Below, one piece after another: positions 1,515-38,970 of a stretch of DNA of 41,055 nucleotides. Position numbers and translations under genes: made by a program. Positions within the stretch are counted from its first letter, which is position 1, and each line of letters opens with the position of its first letter. The DNA comes from a virus, in the IMG/VR virus record IMGVR_UViG_3300045911_000142, positions 1 through 41,055 of that record. One strand, given 5' to 3'. The notes beneath the pieces were generated by a model that did no database searches, was not told the DNA's origin, and saw only the letters and a program-made list of their open reading frames with translations.

Positions 1515-4500
1515 TTATACCTGTATATTTTCTAGTGTTATGGTGATTGGTGGTGTGTATACTTCTATATAACTGTTCATATCTGTAACTTTACAACGGT
1601 ATGTACCAACAAGAGTTGAACCGCAGTTGACTACTGCTGAAAAGTATACAAGAAATCCACCGCCTATCGTGTTAACCTGAAACATATTTCCACTGACATG
1701 TTCCCAATCATAAGAGTAGCTACCAGAACCTCCGGTCACAAAGACTTCAGTATTAGGTGCATTTTCTGTATTTATAGCTTTAAAACCAGATGTACAAGTA
1801 GAAGAAGCATAAACACTATATGAATTTAGAGTTGCAACCAATGGAGCGGGCGATGGTGTAACTGTTGGTGTAACTGTTGGTGTTCTAGTAACAGTAGGCG
1901 TTATACTGGGTGTTATACTAATAGTAGGCGTGCGCGTAGGTGTAATACTAATAGTAGGAGTTATACTCGGTGTTATACTAATGGTTGGCGTTATGCTTGG
2001 CGTTACACTGATTGTTGGTGTAATACTAGGTGTAATACTAGGTGTAATACTTGGTGTTACAGAAGATGTAGGTGTAACACTCGGTGTTCTTGTAACTGTT
2101 GGTGTTATTGTGACTGTAGCCGAAGGCGTAATACTTGGGGTTACCGAAATGGTTGGAGTTACCGTAGGTGTTAGACTTATAGTTGGTGTAATACTTGGAG
2201 TAATACTAATTGTTGGTGTAACTGTTGGTGTAATACTTGGAGTAGTACTAATTGTTGGTGTAACTGTTGGTGTAACACTTGGTGTTCTAGTTGGTGTTCT
2301 AGTTACACTCGGTGTTAAAGAAATTGTAGGTGTAATGCTTGGAGTATTGCTTATTGTAGGCGTAATACTCGGAGTTACAGAAATGGTTGGCGTTACTGTT
2401 GCAGTTGGTGTAACGCTTGGAGTCACACTAATTGTAGGTGTAATGCTTGGAGTCACACTAATTGTAGGTGTAATGCTTGGAGTATTGCTTATTGTAGGCG
2501 TAATACTCGGAGTTACAGAAATGGTTGGCGTTACTGTTGGCGTTAGTGATGGAGATGGGGTTGGGGTAATTGAAGGGGGTGGAGGTACTGTCGGAACTTC
2601 CACTTCATCTATAAAGCATAAACCACCATCTTCATACTGTTCAATTTCTACAGTGTTGTTTCGAGGCTTAACAATATTTCTAATAATCTGTAGTCCGACC
2701 CAAGAAGTCTTAAATATTTCTTTATATTCTTTCTTTGTTGTAAATGCCTCGTGCAAACAATTAAAAAATATCTTATTGACTTCTTCAGCAGTAAAAGAAG
2801 AATATATTGTATTCATGGTGAATAATATATTTTCTATAGTGTCAAAAGTGAAATCGTTTAAAAACTGCAATATGTTTACATTTGAATAAGTATTCTCTGG
2901 ATTCTCAAGTGTTTTGATGACAATATCTAAGGCTCTACGCCCATCCATAAACGCCTGTTCTGGATTCAAACCAAATCTAGTTTGTGCCTGATAAAGACCA
3001 TCATACACGACTCTATTAAGGGCAGGGACAACCTCACTTGTTATAACATTATCAGTTGAAATCTTATAACCTATAATACATTCTATGAGTTTTTTCCACA
3101 AATAATAATCTATCTTTGAAAATTGTTTTTCTCTAAACAATTTCCATTCCACATGTTTATTCTTCTTGGAAAGTGAAATAGTATCTAAACGATCCCTTAA
3201 AGTTCCATCTACTGTAAATCTCAATACATATCTGTTATCAGATTTAACAGTGCCTTCTAAACCTTTAATTATTAATTTAGTATAACGATATGGTAATACA
3301 GTTTTATCTTCATCATATGTCAAGCCATAAATCACGCCATAACCTCCGTCTGAGGTTCTGAAACCATCTGGTATCATGTATGGCTTAGGAATATTTTGTA
3401 ATTCTTTTGTAGCTTGAACCAAGTTAGTCGCTAAAGTATTATTAAATTGTTTTTTATTGTAGACATTATATGCCCAATAATAATATTTGTCTATGAACTT
3501 GTTAGAGGTTTCATCAAAGAACTGTTTCTTGGTGTATGGAACATATCTTTCAATAGTACCAAACTCCGGTTCAAATGTAGTAGGATCAGGCAGCCTTCTA
3601 ATCAAGGAAACAATATCTCCCACTTTAGGTTTTCTTGTCTGTCCAGAAACAAGAATTGTTCCTTGTACAACAGTGAATAAGTTAGTTAGAACATTTGGCA
3701 TGATTGAAAAATCATAAATGCCATTTACATATACGTCTACTGCATCTCCATAATTTAAAGTTAAAGATGGTTGTCCTAAAGAAACAGTTCCAGAAATAAC
3801 TTCTTCATAAACATCTTCATAAACTTCTCTTATTGGTCCATTGCCCGTTAGATATGTTATAAAATATTTTGCATATGGTGTATTAATTTCTGAATCTAGA
3901 TTATGATTAGGATTGACATCAGATTCAACCCATTCCAACAACTCTATCTTTCCATAATCTGCCAATTTACCCCAATTAAATATTCTATCATTTATATTAG
4001 GCATTAATGCAGGATCATCATATGGTAAATATTTTGCATGTTTAGTATTAAACCATACCGTTCCTAATTTGTTTTCAGCCCAAGTTGAGGTATCCTTTGG
4101 AATCTGCAAACCATTTGTATAATCCGCTGGATCATTTTTGGATTCAATGTCAACAATACCATAGGCAACAGTGTAATGTTGCCCGCGAGCAGGATTCCAT
4201 ATTTGAATATCTTCAACTACAACACCAGCAGTCTTATCAATCAATTTTGCAGGAGAATTCTTTCCTTCATCATAGTTGAATGTTATTACTTCCATAAACT
4301 GGAAGAATCTTGGATCAACAATTTTTGTTTCAAAAAAACCAAAAAGTCTTGGACCAGATGTTGGGAACAGTTGAATGGTGGTTTTGTTCAAAAACTTGAA
4401 ATCAACTTTATCAACTAATACAACTTCTTTATTAAGGTCAAAGTCATAATATTTTATAAAAGCAGCATCGGCTGGCTTATCTAAGAAGAAATAAAATCTA

Positions 4501-7500
4501 GAAGATATAAATTGTACCCTACTTTGAGCATTCTTGAAATGCTGCTGCACCTTTGCACTAATATAGAATGCATTATCAGGCGATAGTAAATATTCTTGTT
4601 CTGGCTGATCTAACCATCTATCTTGATCGGTTAGTCTTATAGACGTAAAGGTTGGATCGAGGGCGATTCCATCTGGTTGAACAAATTCTAATCTTAATTC
4701 TTTCCTTATAACATCTTCATGAGTTAATTTTAGTTCTGGATATATTTTCTTTTGAGAACTTCCAAATTCTGCTATCTTATATGCCCAGAATTCGTCTACA
4801 ACAGCACTCTCAAAACGTTTTTGATTTGTAAACGCATTAACTGCGGTGTTTGTACCCTTTTGCTGTATCATTCCCTTCCAGAATAAGAACTGTGTCTTTT
4901 GATTTATATTCAAATCATCCATAAAATCATATGGTCCATCATAGCCCATAGATTTTCTTAGTTCTTTAGTGGTTTTCTTCGTTTCGATACTCTTTAAAGA
5001 ATCATAATAATATCTAAAATCATCCACAGAAGATTCTATATTCTGAACTAATGTGTTGCCATTAATTACAGAACCTGCTAAGTTTGGACGAAGAGTATTA
5101 ACGTTAGGTCTTGAATATTCTAGGAAGAATCTTGGTAAATTCAGACCTAAGAACGGGTCATATATCAATGTATTAATAACTGAATAATTGTTTATAGTTA
5201 GTACATGCTCATATGCATCTATTGATTTTTTAACACCAGTTATGTCAACTTTATTATTTGATAATATGCCTCTCTTGAAAAAACCATCATAAGTTTTTAC
5301 ATATTCAAAACGTTTATCATTACTTTCTTTTACAATTCCTAATAAAGATATTACTGATTTTTTATCATTTCTTACAAACAATAGCTTATCTGGATACATC
5401 AGTTCAGTAGAATTTGTATATACTAGCGTTGAAGATTTATTATCAAAGCTCTCTGACAATACACCAATCGGCGTATAGATTGTAACTTCTTGATTTATAG
5501 GATTTATTGAAAAGGAAGGATATCTTTCCTCATAATCTGAAAGTTGTATGAATATTTTACCAATTTCAGATGTTGTAACTGGTATGAATCTACCCTGTAC
5601 AGCGTCTAAGCGAGAGCCTGCAAGTCTAAATTTTTTATTATTGCTAGTTCTTACAATATAATAAGGTATTGATTGATTTATCATATTGTCAAGTGGTTTT
5701 GGTAAAGTGCTGCCTTCTTCCCCAAGTAAAAGAACAGGAGTACCATTTTCCCAAGTTGCAATAGAAGCATCTGATATTTCAAAAACTTGCTCTGACAAAT
5801 TTACTGTTATTGGATAACTTAAATAATCTGTTTGGCGAATAGCATCCAATTTGAAAGCCCAATCGATAAATTTCTCTAAATGTAACTGCCAAGTATTATT
5901 TCTTTGTGTTTCAAGATCAATATTTGTACCGGTTTCGTTTTCACAAGCAAATCCCTTATCTAATAAGTATTGCTCATATCCCGTTACTATATCAATCACA
6001 TCTTGAATGCCGGTGCATTTCAAAACATTAAATGACATTACTGATCTTTTATCAATAACATGTTTTCTCCAGTTTGATTTTACTGTAGCACCAGAAAGTG
6101 CCTTAAACGTTTGAGATATAGCACCTATAAAATGATTTCCGCTTCCGCCAACTGATGGAATTAATCCTTCTGTGGAGTATGCATATTCGTCTGGGAGTTC
6201 AAATAATTTAAAAGAAAAATCATCTATTTTCTTTACATAATATGGAGTAAATTGATCGAAAGGTGAAGGTAAAATACCTAAAGTGTTCAAAAATACTTCC
6301 TTTCCATCAACCCAATCTTCCGGTAGTGGCAAACGGTTCTTGTTGTTTGCAAACCCGTTAACTATAATGTCAGTTAATGGCATATCTTCATCTACATAGA
6401 TTGTGGTTGTATCATTTTTAACATCGTAAAACACATTATTTACCGTATACTCGCCGTCAAACTGTGTAGAATCAGAAATTTCCAAAATGTCGCTAATATC
6501 AAAATATTTTGTTAAATTTCCACTAAATTTAAAGTATTTTTCAAATTTTAAATTTTCAACCAATGGTCCAGTAAAGAATTCAAATTTACTACTCATAGTA
6601 GAAAAGAATCCTGTATCCACGATATCAACGGCAGATAGCATTCCTGATAAATTACTATGAATTTTAATATTACCGGATTCTAGTACAGCTTCTCCATAAT
6701 CTGCAATTTGCTCATTCAGTATTCTTAATACATCTCTAACAGTATAACCATCGACCATAGTAATCTGTACAACGATGGTGTCAGCAGAATTAAAAACTAA
6801 TGTTGCATTATATGTATTACCAATAAGATATGCCGGAACATCAATAAATGAAAGACTCTCGCCATAATTAATAGTCTGATATCCTCTCTGCGGTCTTATA
6901 CCAGCACCAATAATTTTAAACTTATTAATTTCTACTATATCACTACCAGAAGTAAATAAACACGGGTAGTTTTGAACTCCATAAAATTTAACGGCAGCAT
7001 CATGTGGCGCTTGGATAGAAATCTCAGTAACCCATTCGTTTCCATAATCACGAATCTTGGAATATTTTGAAGGAATACTTAACAGTTTCGCGTTCAACGC
7101 ATACTGTGTAGATTGTTCAAAGTTTCTAGTCTTCTTCAAGCCGATATGAAAGTCTTTCTCAGTTATATCAAAGTTTTCACTAAAAATTGAAAAATTATTA
7201 ACATCAATTACAGAATCAAATGTATACCCTAAATAAGTTTTCCAATTCTTCCAAAGTTGTCTAAAATTAGAAGCAGAACCATCCAAATTATTATATCTTA
7301 AATAATTTACAAACCACTGATTCAAACCATTAACTGTAAATATATTACCATCAATGATATCACCATGAAATAGTGTATTTTTATGAGAGAATACATTCTT
7401 ATAATTAGAATCTACTTGTAAGCAATCTACATCTAAAAGTTTATTTCCAAAGGATTGATTTAAAAACTTAATAGGATCAAGCAAATATGCAATTTTCAAC

Positions 7501-10500
7501 TTGTCATAAACATAATCAATAGAATTTCTCCATTCATATTCCAAAGGTGACATATTACCAAATTTGAAATCATATGATGGAACTGAAACAGATTCATTTA
7601 TTGATACATCAAAAAGACTTCTAACGCGCGGATCGCTGCTATTATCAGAATTCCAATATGGAGGTAATAATTCATCCGGGGCTATTCCATCCGCTGTTGT
7701 AACAGAAGACACATTAACAGACACATATGTGTAAATTTTGTCTACTTGACCATATGAACCCAGCCCTGCATACCCATTAGGATCGGTCGCGCCAATTGGT
7801 ATCACACCGTTAAACACATTTGTCCACATGATAGATTTCCATCTACGATTTGTTAGTAACGATGTATTTTTATAAAAACTATCCCACCAAGCAGGTTTAT
7901 CTTTAAATCCTTGTAACTTCCACGGCTCTAGATGTGGGTATGGAGTACCATAAAATTTAGTATAAAGTGCCTTCCAAAAAGCCGGAAGATTAGAACCAGA
8001 GATATTGTCAATAGGTAGTGTGTTTACTATGCTATTACTATAATTCCACGTATACGGGTTATTCTGAGAATATTGTGTGTTTACTGTATAATTTATCTTT
8101 TGCCTAAATGCATAATTCTCAAAACTTTTCTTCTCTAACTTGAAGAAGTCAGGATTGTTTATTGTTTTATCAAAATCATAAACTATGTCTATATTTTGTT
8201 CAACAAGAAGATTTCTTTCAACTTCTAATATCACATTGCCTAAAATTTCTTCAAAGGTGATTTCAACCCAACCATTATCCGTAGTGTTTACAAACAACGA
8301 CTTTGTTGTTCCTAATTTTCTGATAACAAAATTGCTAGAAGTTAATGGGAATGGATCGGATTGATTTGTTACCGTTTGAAGTTCCACTAAGTTTTCTTCG
8401 ACTAAGAAATTATATAATATTTCTTTTTCTGCTTTGTTAAAAATAATTGGGTAAACATGGCCAGTATGACATACCACCTCAGATATACCCAATTTATTGT
8501 CGTAAAGAAATATTGGATCACTAAATTCGCAAAGACCAAATCTAGCAGCAGAAGATATCCAACCATGTAACCCGGAAGTAGAGTCTCCATACCATTCATC
8601 AAATTTTTTATTGTTCCTAATTTCATCTATAATAAAATTAGAAACTGATGTTATAAAACTTTGAATTGTTGTTGTATCTAATTTAAAAACGTCAAGAATC
8701 TTATCTTTAAATGTTTCTTTTATCCAATTTTGTTGTGAATCATATTGATTCTTTGCGAACTCTATCACTTCTAAAGAATCAATACCATCAGTGAACAAAG
8801 ATGACGCTAATAAATTAAATCCATCATTAAACTGTTTAATTGTACCACCAACACCATAGTTTATTTTTTCATTTGCATAAATCGTGTTTGACGCTGAACT
8901 AATTAAAGATTCTATTGGTTGTGAATTAATTATGCTTGAAAAATGAGTGAAGAATTGCTCATATGATATAGTTTCATAATTATCAGATTCTAAATTATAA
9001 AACATTTGATCTGAAACATTCCAATCATCTCCAATCTTTGTTGGTACCGTCTGCTCAAGATTCAAACCATGACGCCAAACACTACGTTTAACATTTTCAG
9101 ATAAATCATTATACAATAATAAATTATTTTTTTCTATTAATTTATTTTCAAATATTGGAAACCCATTTGCTGTCCTTTCTATTCTTTTTAGCAAGAACTT
9201 ATCTATATCAGCCGAATCAGATTCTTTAAACTTAAAAATACTGTTTGCTGCGTCTAATGGAGTACCATCAACATCATAAATTGCAAAGAAAGGATATTGG
9301 TTCTTTTCAGTCTTTATTTGGGTAACTTCTCTCAATCTTGTTAAGTTTACCAATTCTGTACCTGAAGGCGTATTTAATCTGACTGCTCTCCTTCCAATAT
9401 CTTTTTTATCAAACTCACCCAATCTAACTTCTACAATGTCATCAACATTTATAATTACATTATCGTAGAACTTTATACCACCGCAGAAATCTGGATTCAC
9501 GAAAGATGGTATATCAATATAGTTACCTATCTGTTTAATGCCATTAATATAAACTCTAATATCACCTTCTTGATAATCGTCAAACAAAACTAAATCATGT
9601 AATGAATAATCATCACCGTGATAAAAATAAAATGTTGGTCCGGCCTTAGAAGTACCACCAGAATCTAAACGCAATCTGTAAACTTGTTTATATAAAAATA
9701 TATTGCTAAAATAGTTATAATCGTCAATAAATTGGTTTTGTAAATTTATATCAAAATTGCTATATTTTAGATATGTGGAAAACATATCATTTTCTACTTC
9801 AATTTTAGAAGTAGGTGCCACATGCTTAACTCCGAAATACTGAAATTGGTTAGCATCATGTCCAAGCCATTCATCACCAAACGAGGTGGTTGTCGGGCCA
9901 ATATAAGCACCAACAGGTAAATCATTAATATCTGGAAACTGCTCTGCTATCTCTATTTTTGAGACATACCTACTAGTCGGTGATATTTTATCGAATGATT
10001 TATTGTTGATAGTGTATATACCATTATTAAAATCAAATCCCGATAGTTTAATTTTTTGTCCTATTTGCAAGTCTGAAACTATATCACCAAATTTTGAATT
10101 AAAAACAATAGTTTTTGTATTTTCAAAATAAAATTCATTACCTTGTGAAATTCTAATATCATGAATTTCAAACATAATTGGTTGTTGATTTATTTCTTTA
10201 TACTCAGCACTTGTTGTCTTTCTATATCTCCAATCAAATGATGTATTTGATCTGTTGGATAATTGAACATAAGGGAGATATTCAATGATTGGTAGTTGAG
10301 CCTTAGTCTTATTATTTAAATTAAATATTTGAGTCTTATGCTTCCACTTGTTTTTAGACGACCAATCATCAGTTTGGGTGAAATTAACCGTGTAAGAGCT
10401 TCCAACAAAGTTTAAAACTTTTGAAAAATTTAAATAAATTGTTAACCAAGATAGTCCATCAAACTGCTTTAAACGATCAGAAACAGTATCGTACCAAAGA

Positions 10501-11867
10501 TCATAAAGTGCCGGTGAAGATGGTTGGGTTGCTGATTTAATAGTATCAAATGTTCTTTCTCTTAATATATTGTAGGTAATATTTGATGTGTTAAAGAATC
10601 TAATATCACTATCTAACACCAGATCAAAGGTAGATACTGATCGAATATAATACTCACCTAATAATGGAGTTCCATTAGTAATTTTCAGAACATCTCCGAT
10701 ACCTATGTTTTCTGTTACAAAGTCCACAGTATAATCTTTGAAGACATTTGATCCTGATTCTACAAAACCTTCATTCGTACCTTCAAAAACCTGTGAATAT
10801 TTTGACCAAATCAATCGACCAAGGGTTTTATCTGACCAAGATTCATTTTTAAATGTGAATGCAAATTTATCTCGAATTGACTCAGTTTCTCCTTCTGTCA
10901 AATATATTAGTGGGGTAAGAGACAGATACGACACAGAAGGATTGGAAATAAGTTCATTTACTTCAACAATTGTATTTCCGTTTGAATCTAATTGGCTAGA
11001 TTTTACAGTATAAAATGCATCCTGTACGCCTTTAGCCAATAAGATGTAATCTTTTTTAAGTACATTCTCCAAATCGCCAGCGATGATAAAATTATTATTA
11101 ATTACATCAACCGACAAAACTTCACTGAATGCTCTGGATACACTTATAACATTTGTTGATAGTGTTAAATCAATAGTTATCTCTGTTAAACCAGAGCCTG
11201 TATTATAAGTAGAAGAAATTACATTTGCGGTTATAAATTCAGAATTAGATAGAAACAGAATAATCGGTCTATTAGATTCGAATTTTTGAACATAATTTCC
11301 ACTAATGCGTATAAGATTTCCGGTTCCACTTACTACTTCATATGAAGTTGTATTTCTATGTACGTTAGCTTTTGTAAATTGACTTCTAGATAATGACCAA
11401 TTAACTCTATTTTTTATAGTAACATACTCTGGTGTTTCGCTGAAAATTTCAGAATCCCAATAATAATCTCCATAATTTATAAGTTTGTCTATGTCTACTG
11501 GCGGAACCCAATTGAATGCTAAAGAATTAGCAATCTGATCATATTTTGATATGTCAACACCAGAATTTTCTAGTTTTCTAATAATATCTTTAAATGTCAA
11601 ATAATAATCTTCAGTGCCAACGCTTGCTCTCAAAACTGGCTGTAATTGATTTTGCTGCTTAAATGCAGTATTTTCTTTTATCTGGAAACTCTCGTCATCA
11701 TTTAGAACAGCACGTCCAATGTAACCAACAACTCTTTTAGAGTCGTCCTTGGTTAAAAATCTATTGAATAGATTTTCATTTATTGCTTCAGCTATTCTGG
11801 TTTGCTTTGGCGAAACTAGTAAATTGTTTAAATTTGTTCTCTTAGATGAGTAATCAGAATTATTCAC
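1515..11867 (-). CDS. Giant virion structural protein (3450 aa) with Thr/Pro-rich stalk and Ig-like C-terminus
   Basis: It lies directly after gp6, where T4 has gene 7, so a baseplate-wedge or tail-fibre role is inferred; no homology to gp7 could be tested. The N-terminus (about 1-180) has a [20 protein letters not shown] motif that I associate with large structural proteins of marine T4-like phages. The long middle is rich in beta-strand, Asn, Tyr and Asp residues and has no recognised enzyme motif. About residues 3091-3341 are a low-complexity stalk of TPSITPTIS-type repeats. The last ~108 residues ([19 protein letters not shown]..., GTYRCKVTD) look like an Ig/PKD-like beta-sandwich with three cysteines, suited to surface binding at the tip of the stalk. 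The start is GTG, chosen because an AAGGG ribosome site lies 6-7 nt upstream and an exact late promoter 25 nt upstream. Confidence 0.75.
1846..2598 (-). repeat. In-frame Thr/Pro/Ser/Ile repeat tract of the giant structural gene
   Basis: About 250 codons of a 10-residue-like unit ([10 protein letters not shown] and variants with N, L, I, R). At DNA level it contains a 30-nt unit repeated in tandem at 2431-2460 and its neighbours, and a perfect 78-bp direct repeat at 2323-2400 and 2461-2538 (offset 138 bp, a multiple of three). Such perfect copies imply recent duplication and allow in-frame expansion or loss by slippage or recombination. The long open frame on the opposite strand here is a by-product of the repeat. 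Confidence 0.9.
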
Positions 11868-22918: not shown

Positions 22919-24094
22919 ATGTCTTTCTTAAAAGAAGCTGTTAATTATATTAGAAATTCATTTCTCACTGAAGCATCTTCTCAAGATGTTTATAATGAAA
23001 TTGTTTCTGCAGTTAATGCAGTTGAACCATCTAACGAACGTAATAGCGCGGTCAGTGGACTATGGGTGGCCGGGTTAATGAAAGGATTAATGTCAAATGA
23101 CAGTAACACAAATATGTTGTTGGCTGCATACCGTGGTAATAGATTAGACCCGGAATCAAAAGAATATAGAGATGCAAGAAGAATACTTGCAGCATTACAA
23201 GTTTTAAGAAAATATAATTTAGTAACATCTCAAAATGATCAATTTTATTTAAATAAAGATAAGAGAGAAGTTATTTCAAAATTTTTAGCAAGAATCACAC
23301 AATATTCACACGATGCAAAAGATAGAAAGGATTTAGCAAAAAACGTTAGATCAGCAGAGTATGGTTCTGATCAAGAATGGTATGATAATTTATCATCTGA
23401 TCAAAAACATGCCGTACAATTAATAAAAGACATGGATTTAAAAGATATTGCATTATTGAATAGATTAGTCTCTAAAAAGGAAAGTAAAAAATCATATGTT
23501 GATTTAATTCAACAATTAGAAATTAGAGGTAATCAATCTGTTGATAAATTTAAAGCTATGGGCATCATCAACGATGACAATACACTGAATAGTTACTTAT
23601 TATCTTCATTGGACTCTATTATAAATGATCCTCAATTTGAAACAAGATTAAAATTTATAAACAGAACAATGAGGGACAAGTTGTATCGTTCAGCAGCAGA
23701 TAAAGCATTAAACCTCTCTGCATTAGCAAAAAATGTTTTAGATACAGACTTTGGTAGAAAGGCACTGTCTTTGATAGATGGTCCACTTGCATCAGACATT
23801 GAGGATTTGAAAAAAGTGTTCGGCGGTGCAACAGTTAAAAAATCATTACTTATAAAGTTGAAAAAGTTTGGTTTAGTTGATGCCGGTAATGGACTAACTG
23901 ATCTGGGCAAAGCAGTTTCTGCGTTAATTAAGAAAGGTTATTCTAAAGCAGATTATCAAGACGTTAGAAAGGGAGTAAACTACTCTGGGATGCGTCCATC
24001 TGAAGACTCTATTGTAAGAGATAGATTGAATAAACGTGCAGCAGATAGAAAATCTGAAATTTCTAATATAATAAGAAGAAATCAAAGAGCTTGA
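22919..24094 (+). CDS. Putative internal head protein with winged-helix-like repeats (391 aa)
   Basis: Not recognised by family. The first 18 residues, MSFLKEAVNYIRNSFLTE, form an amphipathic helix ending in LTE followed by Ala, which matches the T4 gp21 protease cleavage rule ((L/I)-x-E then a small residue) and resembles the capsid-targeting peptides of T4 internal proteins. The rest is basic and helical. Up to three segments look like winged helix-turn-helix units: residues about 88-127 (LAALQVLRKYNLVTSQNDQFYL...), about 195-235 (VDKFKAMGIINDDNTLNSYL), and about 303-340 (KSLLIKLKKFGLVDAGNGLTDLGKAV). Together with its exact late promoter this suggests a protein packaged with, and possibly bound to, the DNA. 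This is inference. Its stop TGA lies inside the -35 box of the downstream RNA promoter. Confidence 0.65.
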   Translation: MSFLKEAVNYIRNSFLTEASSQDVYNEIVSAVNAVEPSNERNSAVSGLWVAGLMKGLMSNDSNTNMLLAAYRGNRLDPESKEYRDARRILAALQVLRKYNLVTSQNDQFYLNKDKREVISKFLARITQYSHDAKDRKDLAKNVRSAEYGSDQEWYDNLSSDQKHAVQLIKDMDLKDIALLNRLVSKKESKKSYVDLIQQLEIRGNQSVDKFKAMGIINDDNTLNSYLLSSLDSIINDPQFETRLKFINRTMRDKLYRSAADKALNLSALAKNVLDTDFGRKALSLIDGPLASDIEDLKKVFGGATVKKSLLIKLKKFGLVDAGNGLTDLGKAVSALIKKGYSKADYQDVRKGVNYSGMRPSEDSIVRDRLNKRAADRKSEISNIIRRNQRA

Positions 24095-24121
24095 CAAATC
24101 AAAAAAACTATCGTATAAATA
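24091..24121 (+). promoter_or_regulatory. Strong promoter of the noncoding RNA (sigma70 consensus, overlapping a late octamer)
   Basis: TTGACA at 24091-24096, 17-nt spacer, TATAAA at 24114-24119: the sigma70 consensus with a single mismatch in the -10 box. The -10 is also an exact T4 late octamer TATAAATA (24114-24121). Transcription would begin near 24127. No start codon with a ribosome site follows within 500 nt other than the helicase start. Confidence 0.8.
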
Positions 24122-24126
24122 CCCTC

Positions 24127-24665
24127 AAGGAAATTATAAAAGGATTTAATACAACTAGGTAATTCTGAAAAGGCTGCACGGGTACGCATAGCGTCGAAGT
24201 CGAGTGTGATATGTAAGATTGGAATTGTCTTACATCTAGTATTCACCAAGGTCTTTGTAAGGGTTTGTATATCTAAAAAACTTTGCAGAATTAAGTATCA
24301 GATATATAAAACTTGACTTACTAAAACGGCTTGATTGATTCCACAGTCAAGCAATCCAAGATATGATGTGGATGATTCATATCGCGGAAGCCGAGTACAT
24401 CTCTCCTTATGATGTACCGATCCCTATGGTAGTTGGGATAAATCTACTGGGTTTGGATTAGCGTTCAGTTTTCCCAGATATAATAAAATATATCTAAAAA
24501 ATGGGGAGGAGGAATTATTGCTTTTGAGTACCTTGAGCAAGATTGAAAGTAGATGCCGAACAAAGTGAGGCATCTAGCGGCGAAGCCGCAATGTTAGAAA
24601 ATAGATTAAAAAGAATCACCTCTTAAAATCGAACGCAGTGAGATTTTAAGAATGACTTTTCTTTT
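24127..24665 (+). ncRNA. Candidate large structured noncoding RNA (about 540 nt)
   Basis: This 600-nt region holds no ORF of note on either strand but many perfect hairpins: 24211-24218/24228-24235 (8 bp), 24268-24274/24300-24306 (7 bp), 24329-24334/24347-24352 (6 bp), 24360-24366/24377-24383 (7 bp), 24395-24401/24411-24417 (7 bp), 24420-24424/24435-24439 (5 bp), 24476-24482/24489-24495 (7 bp), 24518-24523/24535-24540 (6 bp), 24550-24557/24569-24576 (8 bp), 24577-24581/24585-24589 (5 bp), 24621-24630/24642-24651 (10 bp). Longer-range pairs also fit: GTAAG 24257-24261 with CTTAC 24317-24321, and TAATTC 24160-24165 with GAATTA 24512-24517. A 6-bp loop-loop pair joins TCCACA (24340-24345) and TGTGGA (24367-24372). 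The last hairpin followed by a T-rich stretch could end the transcript. It is not a tRNA and lacks recognisable group I intron core elements. Membership of ROOL, GOLLD or another ornate phage RNA class could not be tested. Confidence 0.75.
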
Positions 24666-24703
24666 ACATCGGGCCAGTGTATACTAAAGAAAAAAGGATA
24701 ATT

Positions 24704-26326
24704 ATGTCCAAATCAATTACATCATACTGGCCAATGAGTACACCTATGCGTAAATCGCAACAAATTGTACTTGATTGGATTGAAAAGCAGCCATCACATA
24801 TAAAATATTTCATAGCCGAGATGCCAGTTGGTTCAGGTAAATCTCCAGTTGGTATTAATTTTAGTTCTTATTTTTCTGCACTTGCAGGTACAAGTCCTGC
24901 AGGTAATGGAATCGTTTTCACACCACAGAAAATATTACAAAAGCAATACGAGACCACCTTTAATAACCAAGTCGCGGGTTTATATGGAAAAAATAATTAT
25001 ACATGCATGTTGAAAAACACATCATGTGATATTGGAACACTAGTTAAACCGGAATGCCCTGACTGTCCTCATGCAAAAGCTCTTGAAAAAGCAGATGCAT
25101 GTGGTAATGCGGTTTTAAGTTACAGGCTTGGCTTGCTACATGCATTATTAAAGTCTAGACTAATTAGAAAGAAGAAAATATTCATTCTTGATGAATGTCA
25201 TACTTTAGAAAATCACTTAACTGAATTTTCATCTATTAATATATCTGAAAGAACATGTAAGAAATACAATGTTTTGTTTAGGAAGCCAAAAACCATATAT
25301 GATGCACTTTCTTTCTTGGAAACAGATTATTTGCCTGCACTTAATGCATGGATAGAATTAATGCGTCCAGCAATTGAAAGAACAATAAGTATTGCGGAAT
25401 ACAGACCAGATTCTTTATCTAAATCAGATATGGAATCCATTCTAGAATTTGAAGAGGTCATTAAATCTTCAGAATTGATTATCAATTTGCTAGCACAGTC
25501 TGAAAACAAAGACATAACTAAAGAATATGCATTGATAACAGAAAAGGCATATTTCAAGTTTAAAGAACTCTTCGGAAGAAGAGTATTCTCTAAACTTTTA
25601 GATGAAAAGGCAGAAAAAATGCTATTCATGTCTAGTACCATTTTAGATCACAAAGCATTTTGTGCTGATTTAGGGATAGACGTGGCTAATGCTGCCTTCA
25701 TATCTGTCGATAGTGAATTTTCTAATGAGCATAGGCCGGTTTTTTTCATGCCAAGGGCAAAAATGACATTCGGTTGGGATTTACCTGAAAGAAAATCTGA
25801 CAGAGAAAAAATGATATCTGCAATAAAAATGTTATTAACTGAAAACCATTGCGATGACAATGGTATAATTCATACAGGTAGTTTTCAAATTGCAAACTGG
25901 TTAGTTAAGGAATTAGCAAATATTGATACCCATATAATTTATCATCATGGTGAGGAAGGTGAAGAGACTCGGGATGTAGTTATTGATAAATTTCAAAATG
26001 ATGAAACTGACAAGCCTAAAGTTTTAATCAGTCCTTCTATTACAGAAGGACTTGATTTAGTAGGTGACAAAGGAAGATTTGCAATATTTGCAAAGGTGCC
26101 ATACTTACAACTTGGGGATTCATGGGTTAAGGGAAGACTTAATCTATCTCAAGAGTGGTATAATAGACAGGCTATGATCGCTATAATTCAAGGTGCTGGA
26201 CGTGTTGTCCGTGGGCCTGACGACTGGGGTTATACATACATTCTTGACGAAAGCTTTGAACTTTTGTATTCTAAAATGGAGAATAAAATACCCAAATGGT
26301 GGAAAGACGCATATGAAAAGGTATAA
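24704..26326 (+). CDS. DinG/XPD-type superfamily 2 DNA helicase with probable Fe-S cluster
   Basis: 540 aa from the ATG at 24704, preferred over an upstream in-frame GTG (24677) because an AGGA ribosome site lies 5 nt before it. Motifs in order: Q-like TPMRKSQQ; Walker A AEMPVGSGKS (about 38-47); cysteines C101, C108, C118, C121 (and C133) between motifs I and II, spaced as in the XPD/DinG iron-sulfur insert; Walker B ILDECHTLENH (about 161-170, DECH variant of DEAH); SAT-like FMSSTIL; and motif VI IIQGAGRVVRGPDDWG (about 495-509). Family members unwind DNA 5' to 3'. It is not one of the standard T4 helicases (gp41, Dda, UvsW), so its role here, perhaps fork or R-loop processing, is inferred. 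It lies downstream of the RNA promoter and may share its transcript. Confidence 0.85.
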   Translation: MSKSITSYWPMSTPMRKSQQIVLDWIEKQPSHIKYFIAEMPVGSGKSPVGINFSSYFSALAGTSPAGNGIVFTPQKILQKQYETTFNNQVAGLYGKNNYTCMLKNTSCDIGTLVKPECPDCPHAKALEKADACGNAVLSYRLGLLHALLKSRLIRKKKIFILDECHTLENHLTEFSSINISERTCKKYNVLFRKPKTIYDALSFLETDYLPALNAWIELMRPAIERTISIAEYRPDSLSKSDMESILEFEEVIKSSELIINLLAQSENKDITKEYALITEKAYFKFKELFGRRVFSKLLDEKAEKMLFMSSTILDHKAFCADLGIDVANAAFISVDSEFSNEHRPVFFMPRAKMTFGWDLPERKSDREKMISAIKMLLTENHCDDNGIIHTGSFQIANWLVKELANIDTHIIYHHGEEGEETRDVVIDKFQNDETDKPKVLISPSITEGLDLVGDKGRFAIFAKVPYLQLGDSWVKGRLNLSQEWYNRQAMIAIIQGAGRVVRGPDDWGYTYILDESFELLYSKMENKIPKWWKDAYEKV

Positions 26327-36722: not shown

Positions 36723-37351
36723 AAACACAATTATTAGTAGAAAGCATATCTGCCACTGAAGGTGATATTGTAACAGAATCACTTAATGATGGTAAGAATG
36801 TATATTTAAAGGGCGTGTTCATGCAGGCCGGTGTAAAAAACAGAAACGGTAGAATTTATCCTATTAATGAAATGCAAAATGCAGTTAATAAGCTAAATGA
36901 AAGTATAAAACAATATGGCGGCGTGTTCGGAGAGCTGGACCACCCTAATGGCATCCAAATCAATATGGATAGAATATCACATGTTATCACTGAATGCTAC
37001 ATGGATGGAAATAATGTTATAGGCAAGGCTAAAATATTAGGGACTCCAATGGGGTTAATTGCCAAAGAGTTAGCTAATTCTGGCGTTCGTTATGGAGTAT
37101 CATCAAGAGGTACTGGTACTGTGAATGAATCAGATGGTACAGTATCTGGATTTAATATTGTTACTGTAGATTTAGTAGCAACCCCATCGGCACCGGGGGC
37201 ATATCCACAATCAGTGATGGAGTCTTTACAATCATTGAAGTCTGGACAAAAGTTATTGACACTTGCTGAATCTATACAGTATGATAAGTCTGCACAGAAG
37301 TTCTTTAAAGACGCATTTAGAGAATTCTTTCGAGATATTACTAAAAAATAA
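36719..37351 (+). CDS. 21: Prohead maturation protease, gp21-like
   Basis: 210 aa, equal to T4 gp21 (212 aa). Conserved sequence: LKGVFMQAGVKNRNGRIYP; GGVFGELDHPNGIQINMDRISHVI with candidate catalytic His75; GVRYGVSSRGTG with candidate Ser128/129; and FNIVTVDLVATPSAPGAYPQ with a possible third residue Asp151. The enzyme matures the head by cutting scaffold and capsid proteins after (L/I)-x-E and then itself. Its own N-terminus has such a site (LLVE-S). A GGAG ribosome site and ATGA overlap couple it to the core gene upstream. The usual next genes (22 scaffold, 23 capsid) are absent here; a homing endonuclease starts at its stop codon. Confidence 0.95.
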   Translation: MKTQLLVESISATEGDIVTESLNDGKNVYLKGVFMQAGVKNRNGRIYPINEMQNAVNKLNESIKQYGGVFGELDHPNGIQINMDRISHVITECYMDGNNVIGKAKILGTPMGLIAKELANSGVRYGVSSRGTGTVNESDGTVSGFNIVTVDLVATPSAPGAYPQSVMESLQSLKSGQKLLTLAESIQYDKSAQKFFKDAFREFFRDITKK

Positions 37352-38970
37352 TGGCAGCATCTGATTTAAAAAAAAATGCTTGGAAAACATTATCCCCAAC
37401 CTTAAAAGTTGGGGATTTTGCTTCATTGAAATGGCTTTCCGATGAATACCCACCCGGAAAATCTACTAGTAACATTCATATCAAACACCCACAGGGGTAC
37501 GTTGATCTAATCGAATGTACCAGTTTCTTAGAAAAATCTGCAACTAATAGTCAAAGACTATGGCACATCAGAACAGAACTTTATAATTCAAAGTGTGAAA
37601 ACTGTTCTAACACTACTAAATGGCAACCAAAAATTTTTAGTTATTCTAGGTTTTGTAGTAAAAAGTGCTCTAATAATAGCTCTAATACTAAGATGAAAAG
37701 GGTAGAAACTAATATTAAAAAATATGGAACTACTTCATTTTCTAAAACAGAATCATTTAAAAATCTGTATAAGTCTACAGATTTTATAGATAAAATAGTT
37801 TGTGAACATGAAAATAAAAATAAACAAGAAAAAAAAGAAAGAATTCATCATACTAAAACGAATACATGGAAACAAAATAACCCATCACCATTCTGTGATC
37901 CTAAAATACAATATAAGATAAAAAAGACATTTGAAGAAAAATATGGTTGTCACCCAACTAGAAAACGATTTTCAAAAGATACATTGAGTATTATTACAGA
38001 TGTAAAAAAAATAAAATATTTACATTATGATAATAATTTATCACTATCAGAGATATCTAATATTTGTGAAAACTACGATATAAGTAGTATTTCTGATATT
38101 TTAAAGAAAAACAATATTCCAGTACTAAACACCTTTCGTTCTATTGCTGAAAAGGAAATATGTGATATTCTCTCTAAAAATAATATAGCATTTACTACTA
38201 ATAATAGGGATACTATACCTCCATATGAATTAGACATATTGATCCCATCAAAGAATATTGCAATAGAATATTGTGGTTTGTACTGGCATAGCGAAAAGGC
38301 TGGTAAAGATAAAAACTACCATAAGATGAAATTTGATTTGTGTAAGTCTAAAAATATTAAGCTTATAACTATTTTTGAAGATGAATGGCTTGAAAAGAAA
38401 AACATAGTTATATCTTCGTTGAAGCACAAACTAGGTATTTCTAATTCTCAAAGAATATATGCTAGAAAGACTGAAATAAAACATGTTGATGAATATATAA
38501 AATCAAAATTTTTCGATTCTTATCATATTCAGGGCAATGGTCCATCATCAATAAACCTTGCATTATATTATAATAACAATATAGTTGCCTGTATGGGTTT
38601 TATAAAACAAAAAGATCATTATATTTTAAATAGATATGCTACTAGTTGTAATGTTGTTGGTGGCTTTACAAAATTATTAAATTATTTTAGAACTAATAAA
38701 AATTTTCCAAAAATAATAACATATGCAGACCTTAGATGGAGCGCCGGTGATCTATATGAAAAAAATGGATTTAGACTTGATAAAATCATAAAACCAGATT
38801 ATTCGTATTTTAAAGGCAACAATAGATTTCACAAGTTTAATTTCAGACATACTGGAATGGGACGAAAACTTCAAGTATATGACCCTAATATTTCAGAGTC
38901 TAGGAACATGCAGAATAATGGTTATAGTAAAATATATGATTGCGGTAAATTAAAATATATAATAGATTAA
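37351..38970 (+). CDS. Free-standing homing endonuclease (EDxHD/Vsr-like nuclease fold)
   Basis: 539 aa. A DNA-binding-like N-terminal part has a CxxC...CxxxC cluster (C82, C85, C102, C106), probably one zinc, and basic repeats. The catalytic domain (about 262-365) reads SIAEKEICDILSKNNI, PPYELDILIPSKNIAIEYCGLYWHSEK, YHKMKFDLCKSKNIKLITIFEDEWLEKKNIV: the EDxHD pattern of phage homing endonucleases related to PD-(D/E)xK and Vsr enzymes (candidate E267, D295, E306, H313). A C-terminal domain (about 370-539) carries INLALYYNNNIVACMGF and ADLRWSAGDLYEKNGF. Such genes cut alleles lacking them and spread between related phages. Its ATG overlaps the gp21 stop (TAATG) with no Shine-Dalgarno, so translation probably depends on coupling. 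Codon use is even more A/T-rich than that of the neighbours. Confidence 0.88.
   Translation: MAASDLKKNAWKTLSPTLKVGDFASLKWLSDEYPPGKSTSNIHIKHPQGYVDLIECTSFLEKSATNSQRLWHIRTELYNSKCENCSNTTKWQPKIFSYSRFCSKKCSNNSSNTKMKRVETNIKKYGTTSFSKTESFKNLYKSTDFIDKIVCEHENKNKQEKKERIHHTKTNTWKQNNPSPFCDPKIQYKIKKTFEEKYGCHPTRKRFSKDTLSIITDVKKIKYLHYDNNLSLSEISNICENYDISSISDILKKNNIPVLNTFRSIAEKEICDILSKNNIAFTTNNRDTIPPYELDILIPSKNIAIEYCGLYWHSEKAGKDKNYHKMKFDLCKSKNIKLITIFEDEWLEKKNIVISSLKHKLGISNSQRIYARKTEIKHVDEYIKSKFFDSYHIQGNGPSSINLALYYNNNIVACMGFIKQKDHYILNRYATSCNVVGGFTKLLNYFRTNKNFPKIITYADLRWSAGDLYEKNGFRLDKIIKPDYSYFKGNNRFHKFNFRHTGMGRKLQVYDPNISESRNMQNNGYSKIYDCGKLKYIID
37392..37416 (+). terminator. Terminator-like hairpin within the first codons of the homing endonuclease gene
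   Basis: 9-bp stem ATCCCCAAC (37392-37400) / GTTGGGGAT (37408-37416), loop CTTAAAA, then TTTTG. It lies 41 nt after the gp21 stop, where a terminator for the head operon would be expected, but is inside codons 14-22 of the endonuclease. Confidence 0.6.

Follow-up and report, generated by a model that had tools for sequence, protein, structure and literature searches.

What does a densely packed phage genome keep in 609 nt that encode no protein? In the stretch of DNA analyzed here, 41,055 nt long and hereafter called the window, the coding fraction is 0.97 and the largest gap between genes, at 24095-24703, spans 609 nt versus 115 nt for the second largest. It holds no open reading frame (ORF) of at least 60 aa, the longest fully contained one being 49 aa, and the original prediction of some 600 nt without a coding frame, exceptional in so dense a genome, is thus upheld. 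The surroundings are those of a T4-like myovirus: the window, a fragment of such a genome, encodes gp53-, gp6- and gp25-like baseplate proteins, a baseplate hub, a gp46/gp47-like nuclease, a RuvC-like resolvase, a portal and a gp21-like protease. Judging by the helicase and the protease, the nearest named phages share 48-62% protein identity with the window: XacN1, a Xanthomonas phage of 384 kb, and CM1/RAS14, Stenotrophomonas phages of 320 kb; given this kinship, the window most likely comes from a jumbo phage. The gap is flanked by two genes:

22919..24094, + strand: upstream neighbor, a 391-aa protein (no Pfam/PHROG match)
24704..26326, + strand: DinG/XPD-like helicase, the neighbor used for synteny (protein matches, alignment)

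The gap had been described as lying between a head-protein gene and a helicase gene. The helicase is indeed there; it is DinG/XPD-like, and four of its cysteines (101, 108, 118 and 121) are invariant, as expected of an Fe-S helicase. The head protein is not borne out, since the upstream protein matches nothing in Pfam or PHROG; XacN1 and RAS14 have counterparts at the corresponding position, only about 20-22% identical.

Does the gap encode a structured RNA? In MFE folding, the whole gap (24121-24703) reaches a z score of -3.6, with 0 of 100 shuffles as stable, and the core alone (24121-24520) a z score of -2.0, with 5 of 100 shuffles as stable. As the core reaches only -2.0, folding energy by itself is modest evidence that would not settle the matter; the decisive evidence is covariation.

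Relatives of the locus

A corresponding gap precedes the DinG-like helicase in about 18 further metagenomic phages, whose helicases are only about 41-49% identical, and in most of the closer IMG/VR loci the noncoding gap measures about 600-870 nt. The relatives were collected by a helicase-alignment search of IMG/VR (21 loci, then more); single-sequence queries with the helicase and the 391-aa protein returned nearly nothing from that database. At the DNA level, blastn of the gap against phage records gave no meaningful relative, just a chance piece covering 8%. One DNA pattern scan found three known members and five chance contigs, another found known members only, and two more found no match; a narrow DNA pattern had no match in bacterial genomes. 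The relatives' gaps have several motifs in common: ACAAUUU..UCUUGAACAGGCUGCAC, GGUCG, AAGGUCUNNGUGAG, UUGACUYACUAAAAC, AUGG..GGAUAAAU, GGGUUUGG and AAAAAYGGGGGWRGGG.

Architecture and covariation of the RNA core

Twelve loci were segmented by hand into helices, and two domains were made into covariance models: R1 (82 positions), comprising helices H and E and hairpin F, and R2 (92 positions), comprising pseudoknot K/L, stem M and the purine tract, with helix L absent from the covariance model. Hairpins B, C/D, G, I and J are based on the hand-made alignment. The core and its elements are as follows:

24150..24521, + strand: modelled span of the conserved, structured RNA core (structural alignment of 12 loci by hand; covariance-model matches)
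24172..24176, + strand: GGCUG motif, 5′ arm of proposed long-range pairing A (51 of 54 cells paired)
24185..24193, + strand: small hairpin B (36 of 36 cells paired, varied pairs, hand-aligned)
24204..24246, + strand: hairpin C/D, outer 3 bp and inner 5 or more bp (96 of 96 cells paired, many pair types, hand-aligned)
24249..24328, + strand: domain H-E-F (model R1)
24329..24352, + strand: hairpin G (69 of 69 cells paired, hand-aligned)
24360..24383, + strand: hairpin I with a UGGAU-type loop (53 of 60 cells paired)
24388..24392, + strand: AAGCC, 3′ arm of proposed long-range pairing A (hand alignment)
24395..24417, + strand: hairpin J (hand alignment), missing from L008, L012 and L024
24420..24447, + strand: H-type pseudoknot K/L (covariation, held-out test)
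24449..24475, + strand: stem M (GGG/CCC) around the GGGUUUGG motif (36 of 36 cells paired, 3 of 3 pairs double-changed)
24496..24513, + strand: conserved purine tract AAAAAAUGGGGAGGAGGA (alignments)

Domain H-E-F runs in the order GGUCU, helix H (arms 24257-24261/24317-24321), helix E, hairpin F with its ryGRNAUU loop, and UNAAAAC. The pseudoknot is formed by K (24420-24423/24436-24439) and L (24429-24432/24444-24447). The architecture of hairpin C/D is also visible in loci that were not used for the alignment. In L009, the loop of hairpin J is enlarged by a long insertion, at least about 70 nt in size. A short ORF downstream of the purine tract, with the tract serving as its Shine-Dalgarno sequence, was considered and rejected, no frame being kept by eye.

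Whether homologues keep the helices had been named beforehand as the test that could overturn the original prediction, and they do keep them. In the building set, 97.5% of R1 cells are paired and 18 of 18 pairs show at least one double change (0 of 500 shuffles; slid controls 29-46%), while R2 has 96% of cells paired and 10 of 11 pairs double-changed (0 of 500 shuffles; slid controls 39-55%); helix L is 100% paired there, with double changes in all four of its pairs. Both alignments were fitted by eye, with loops abridged or N-padded for model building, a concern that held-out loci answer. Across a search space of 759 kb from 84 sources, both models match the unused loci L042, L046, L055/L056, L037, L040 and L049; L022 is matched by R1 only and L013 by R2 only, and these two, together with L017, are divergent in parts of the RNA. 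All held-out matches lie upstream of the helicase and on its strand, R1 followed by R2, with E values between about 2e-8 and 1e-4 for R1 and between about 1e-8 and 0.013 for R2. In an alignment fitted by the covariance model, 94.3% of the cells in their R1 helices are paired and 14 pairs are double-changed; for helix L, which is not part of R2, the paired share is 96.4%, and three of its four pairs are double-changed. When whole records were searched with R1 and R2, each genome gave a single significant place, every time the site upstream of the helicase. The close helicase loci L007 and L023 have gaps of 309 and 431 nt and no significant R1 or R2 match in their records, so the RNA is dispensable in some relatives.

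Where at least eleven perfect hairpins and nested long-range pairings had been read from the window, covariation supports about ten local stems, the pseudoknot among them, and long-range pairing in part of the family only. Pairing A (GGCUG/CAGCC) becomes GGUUG/CAACC in L008 and L012 and lacks its 3′ partner in L017, L042, L049 and others; it has partial support.

Promoter and 3′ end

How would such an RNA be transcribed? Two elements bracket the core:

24091..24119, + strand: promoter TTGACA-17-TATAAA (read from sequence; conserved in most relatives)
24538..24649, + strand: 3′ hairpins, including UCUUAAAAUC-GAACGCAGUGA-GAUUUUAAGA, followed by a U-rich stretch (sequence, folding of relatives)

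The promoter reported at the start of the gap can be read directly: TTGACA (24091-24096) overlaps the stop codon of the upstream gene and is separated by a 17-nt spacer from TATAAA (24114-24119). It matches the consensus at 11 of 12 positions, a score reached by 0 of 200 shuffles, and was missed by a simple promoter scan because that scan requires T at the last -10 position. In nearly all members, TTGACA or a near-match with 16-18 nt spacing lies about 100-190 nt 5′ of the R1 domain, mostly at 9-11 of 12 to consensus; L011 is the exception, and the promoters of L017, L042, L037 and L049 are weak versus shuffles. Extended to TATAAATA (24114-24121), TATAAA is also compatible with a T4-type late promoter and could be a site for a late sigma factor, a gp55-like one being encoded in the window. 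Directly before the helicase, several relatives have a second good promoter and the window a weak one.

The hairpins at 24538-24649 are a possible, terminator-like end of the RNA. All 18 loci examined have a hairpin in the interval from the purine tract to the helicase; it usually outdoes shuffled sequence clearly in strength and is often tipped by a GAACGAAGUGAG-like sequence. Together, the RNA's own promoter and the intervening hairpin suggest a transcript independent of the helicase. The GAACGAAGUGAG and GCGAGCGUCAGCGAG hairpin tips, which may form tandem G-A pairs, recur after the RNA core in the relatives' 3′ parts and are present within the window at 24538-24649 only.

Comparison with known RNA families

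None of the 4227 models of Rfam 15 reaches its gathering score in the window or any of six relatives, low-threshold matches being chance ones, and within 24000-24800 the GOLLD, ROOL, OLE, HEARO and raiA models are without a match even at E≤10; hence the RNA is not assigned to any of these five. Membership in GOLLD or ROOL, raised earlier as a possibility, is accordingly dropped in favor of a separate, uncatalogued family, and we found no description of it in open-licence papers. The window RNA is a new family of large structured phage RNAs without an Rfam counterpart.

ROOL and GOLLD are phage and prophage RNAs of about 600-800 nt that form RNA-only nanocages (PMC12286853). Like them (PMC12286853), the window RNA is large, richly folded, pseudoknotted and apparently an independent phage RNA, but its conserved core of about 370-400 nt is shorter. 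Whereas ROOL and GOLLD often lie near tRNA islands (for GOLLD this is usual, not universal), the 41-kb window has no tRNA gene. Few families of large structured phage RNAs have been described, and ROOL and GOLLD are still without a known function; the window RNA adds a covariation-supported family whose genomic address is fixed.

Other RNA-like elements at the helicase site

Is the same address used by other RNAs? Between the same two genes, XacN1 has a gap of about 740 nt and RAS14 one of about 870 nt, of which about 290 nt are common to both at 70% identity (E 8e-28). The shared element possibly has, in the order of the window RNA, a C/D hairpin, an H-like stem followed by GAAA, and a G tract, and in XacN1 a AAUAAACCCCCC/GGGGGGUUUAUU pairing can be read. 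Its gap position is identical to that of the window RNA, but R1 reaches the XacN1/RAS14 site only at E 2-4, which is not significant, and R2 has no match there; homology of the XacN1/RAS14/CM1 element to the window RNA is no more than plausible. ORF313 of XacN1 (L003 5772-5933), a small ORF annotated inside this noncoding gap, is probably spurious.

A second covarying RNA family at the helicase site, group D, comprises L048, L052, L054, L068, L021, L065 and L059, and its model, R3, was confirmed on the unseen locus L057 (E 2e-14). It features a C-tract/G-tract pairing, CCCCUUC/GAAGGGG and CCCGUC/GACGGG. R3 does not significantly find the window group, so homology of groups A and D is conjectural. 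A third RNA-like type precedes the helicase in L038, L044 and L053, with 59 nt shared by L038 and L044 at 76%.

In phage PA5oct, a long RNA-like stretch at 75.80-76.75 kb (L095 5800-6750) has a TTGACA-17-TATAAT promoter and lies, as the window RNA does, near gp46/47/55-like, resolvase and baseplate hub genes; a helicase neighbor was not seen there, and R1 and R2 searches of the stretch were not significant. It is annotated as four tiny ORFs, small coding sequences that are probably spurious. A 130-nt domain of the stretch has two further copies (83-84%) in NC_071039, one at 12.9 kb and one at 246.1 kb; at the latter, 246116-246734 is annotated as “putative lncRNA, ncRNA004, based on RNA-Seq”, an RNA known here from the database record alone. 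Like the window RNA, ncRNA004 is a large jumbo-phage RNA, but there is no detectable sequence similarity between them, blastn of the 130-nt lncRNA domain giving no match to the window RNA at E 0.01. The 12.9-kb copy of the domain lies inside the terminal repeat and carries no RNA annotation.

Possible functions

What, then, is the RNA likely to be? At a probability of roughly 0.68, we read 24127 to about 24520 as an uncatalogued gene for a large structured noncoding RNA, single-copy within a T4-like jumbo-phage clade, transcribed from its own promoter and acting in trans as a stable fold. Position, structure and promoter are conserved and coding is lacking; the earlier proposal is right about a large structured noncoding RNA that precedes a helicase gene and has a promoter of its own, which is sigma-70-like. 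By analogy, the gap-borne PA5oct stretch, whose domain is 83% like an RNA-Seq-annotated lncRNA, also counts toward an RNA gene. Transcription would start at the sigma-70-type promoter, apart from the downstream helicase, and might extend to about 24655 if the 3′ hairpins are included. Action in trans is inferred from the RNA's own promoter and the intervening hairpins, both consensus-type evidence; the stable folded molecule may serve as the scaffold of an RNA-protein particle or form an RNA-only assembly like GOLLD and ROOL. The comparable sites in the cultured phages XacN1, RAS14/CM1 and PA5oct open the way to expression, deletion and structure experiments; relatives of PA5oct can be grown on a standard laboratory strain.

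A broader and rather doubtful idea is that T4-like jumbo phages throughout keep one slot by the baseplate-hub, resolvase and helicase genes for one ancient, fast-diverging large structured RNA, which would merely seem to be several families (the window group, the XacN1 group, D, E and PA5oct) and would have a common role, possibly at a replication origin. If so, the core machinery of jumbo phages includes an RNA that has been overlooked and is currently annotated in some records as probably spurious small ORFs.

Could the locus itself be a replication origin? R-loops are known at origins from T4 origin transcripts and plasmid ColE1 RNA II, and the window RNA might likewise be a structured origin transcript, its G-rich tract starting an RNA-DNA hybrid that the DinG-like helicase removes. 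It shares with those systems a G-rich tract, a (here predicted) structured transcript and a possible R-loop helicase close by; the purine tract, conserved and A-rich/G-rich, toward the 3′ end of the core and the neighboring DinG-like helicase, RuvC-like resolvase and gp46/47-like nuclease fit this picture. In two of five genomes, the global minimum of cumulative GC skew falls at the RNA (RNA at 258 kb and minimum at 260 kb; 219 and 215 kb), a third genome has a local one there (212 and 210 kb), and gene orientation diverges about 3 kb upstream of the RNA. However, the skew signal, with minima in three of five genomes, is mostly explained by gene orientation, as regression indicates; after correction it is not significant (best case 20 of 200 permutations, change point +2 kb), and XacN1 has no minimum at the site. 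Moreover, group D and XacN1 offer the G tract an internal pairing partner instead, and the RNA is missing from some relatives. We regard an origin transcript as unlikely.

A leader acting in cis, akin to a riboswitch or attenuator that controls helicase expression, is quite improbable. Wherever found, the RNA precedes the helicase and shares its strand, and the second helicase promoter is weak in the window; however, the RNA has its own promoter and strong hairpins ahead of the helicase, several relatives have that second promoter in good form, and size and complexity exceed those of usual leaders. The leader reading is further weakened by L007 and L023, which keep the helicase without the RNA. 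Finally, a ribozyme or the RNA component of a phage-specific processing enzyme would account for the many conserved unpaired nucleotides and the pseudoknot, as in catalytic RNAs, but with no similarity to Rfam ribozymes, introns or RNase P and no splice context it is very improbable.

Other features of the neighboring genes

Two of the helicase genes carry an intein, with Hint and homing endonuclease domains, in the P-loop (L055 2747-5458 and L064 2978-5461), the insertion point in L055 being APVG^C...HN^SGKS. In the window, a homing-endonuclease-like ORF (37351-38970, + strand; PHROG 3339) lies directly 3′ of the gp21-like head protease, where scaffold and capsid genes are expected. The largest protein of the window, with 3450 aa (1515-11867, - strand), matches in part a PHROGs family of giant virion structural proteins.
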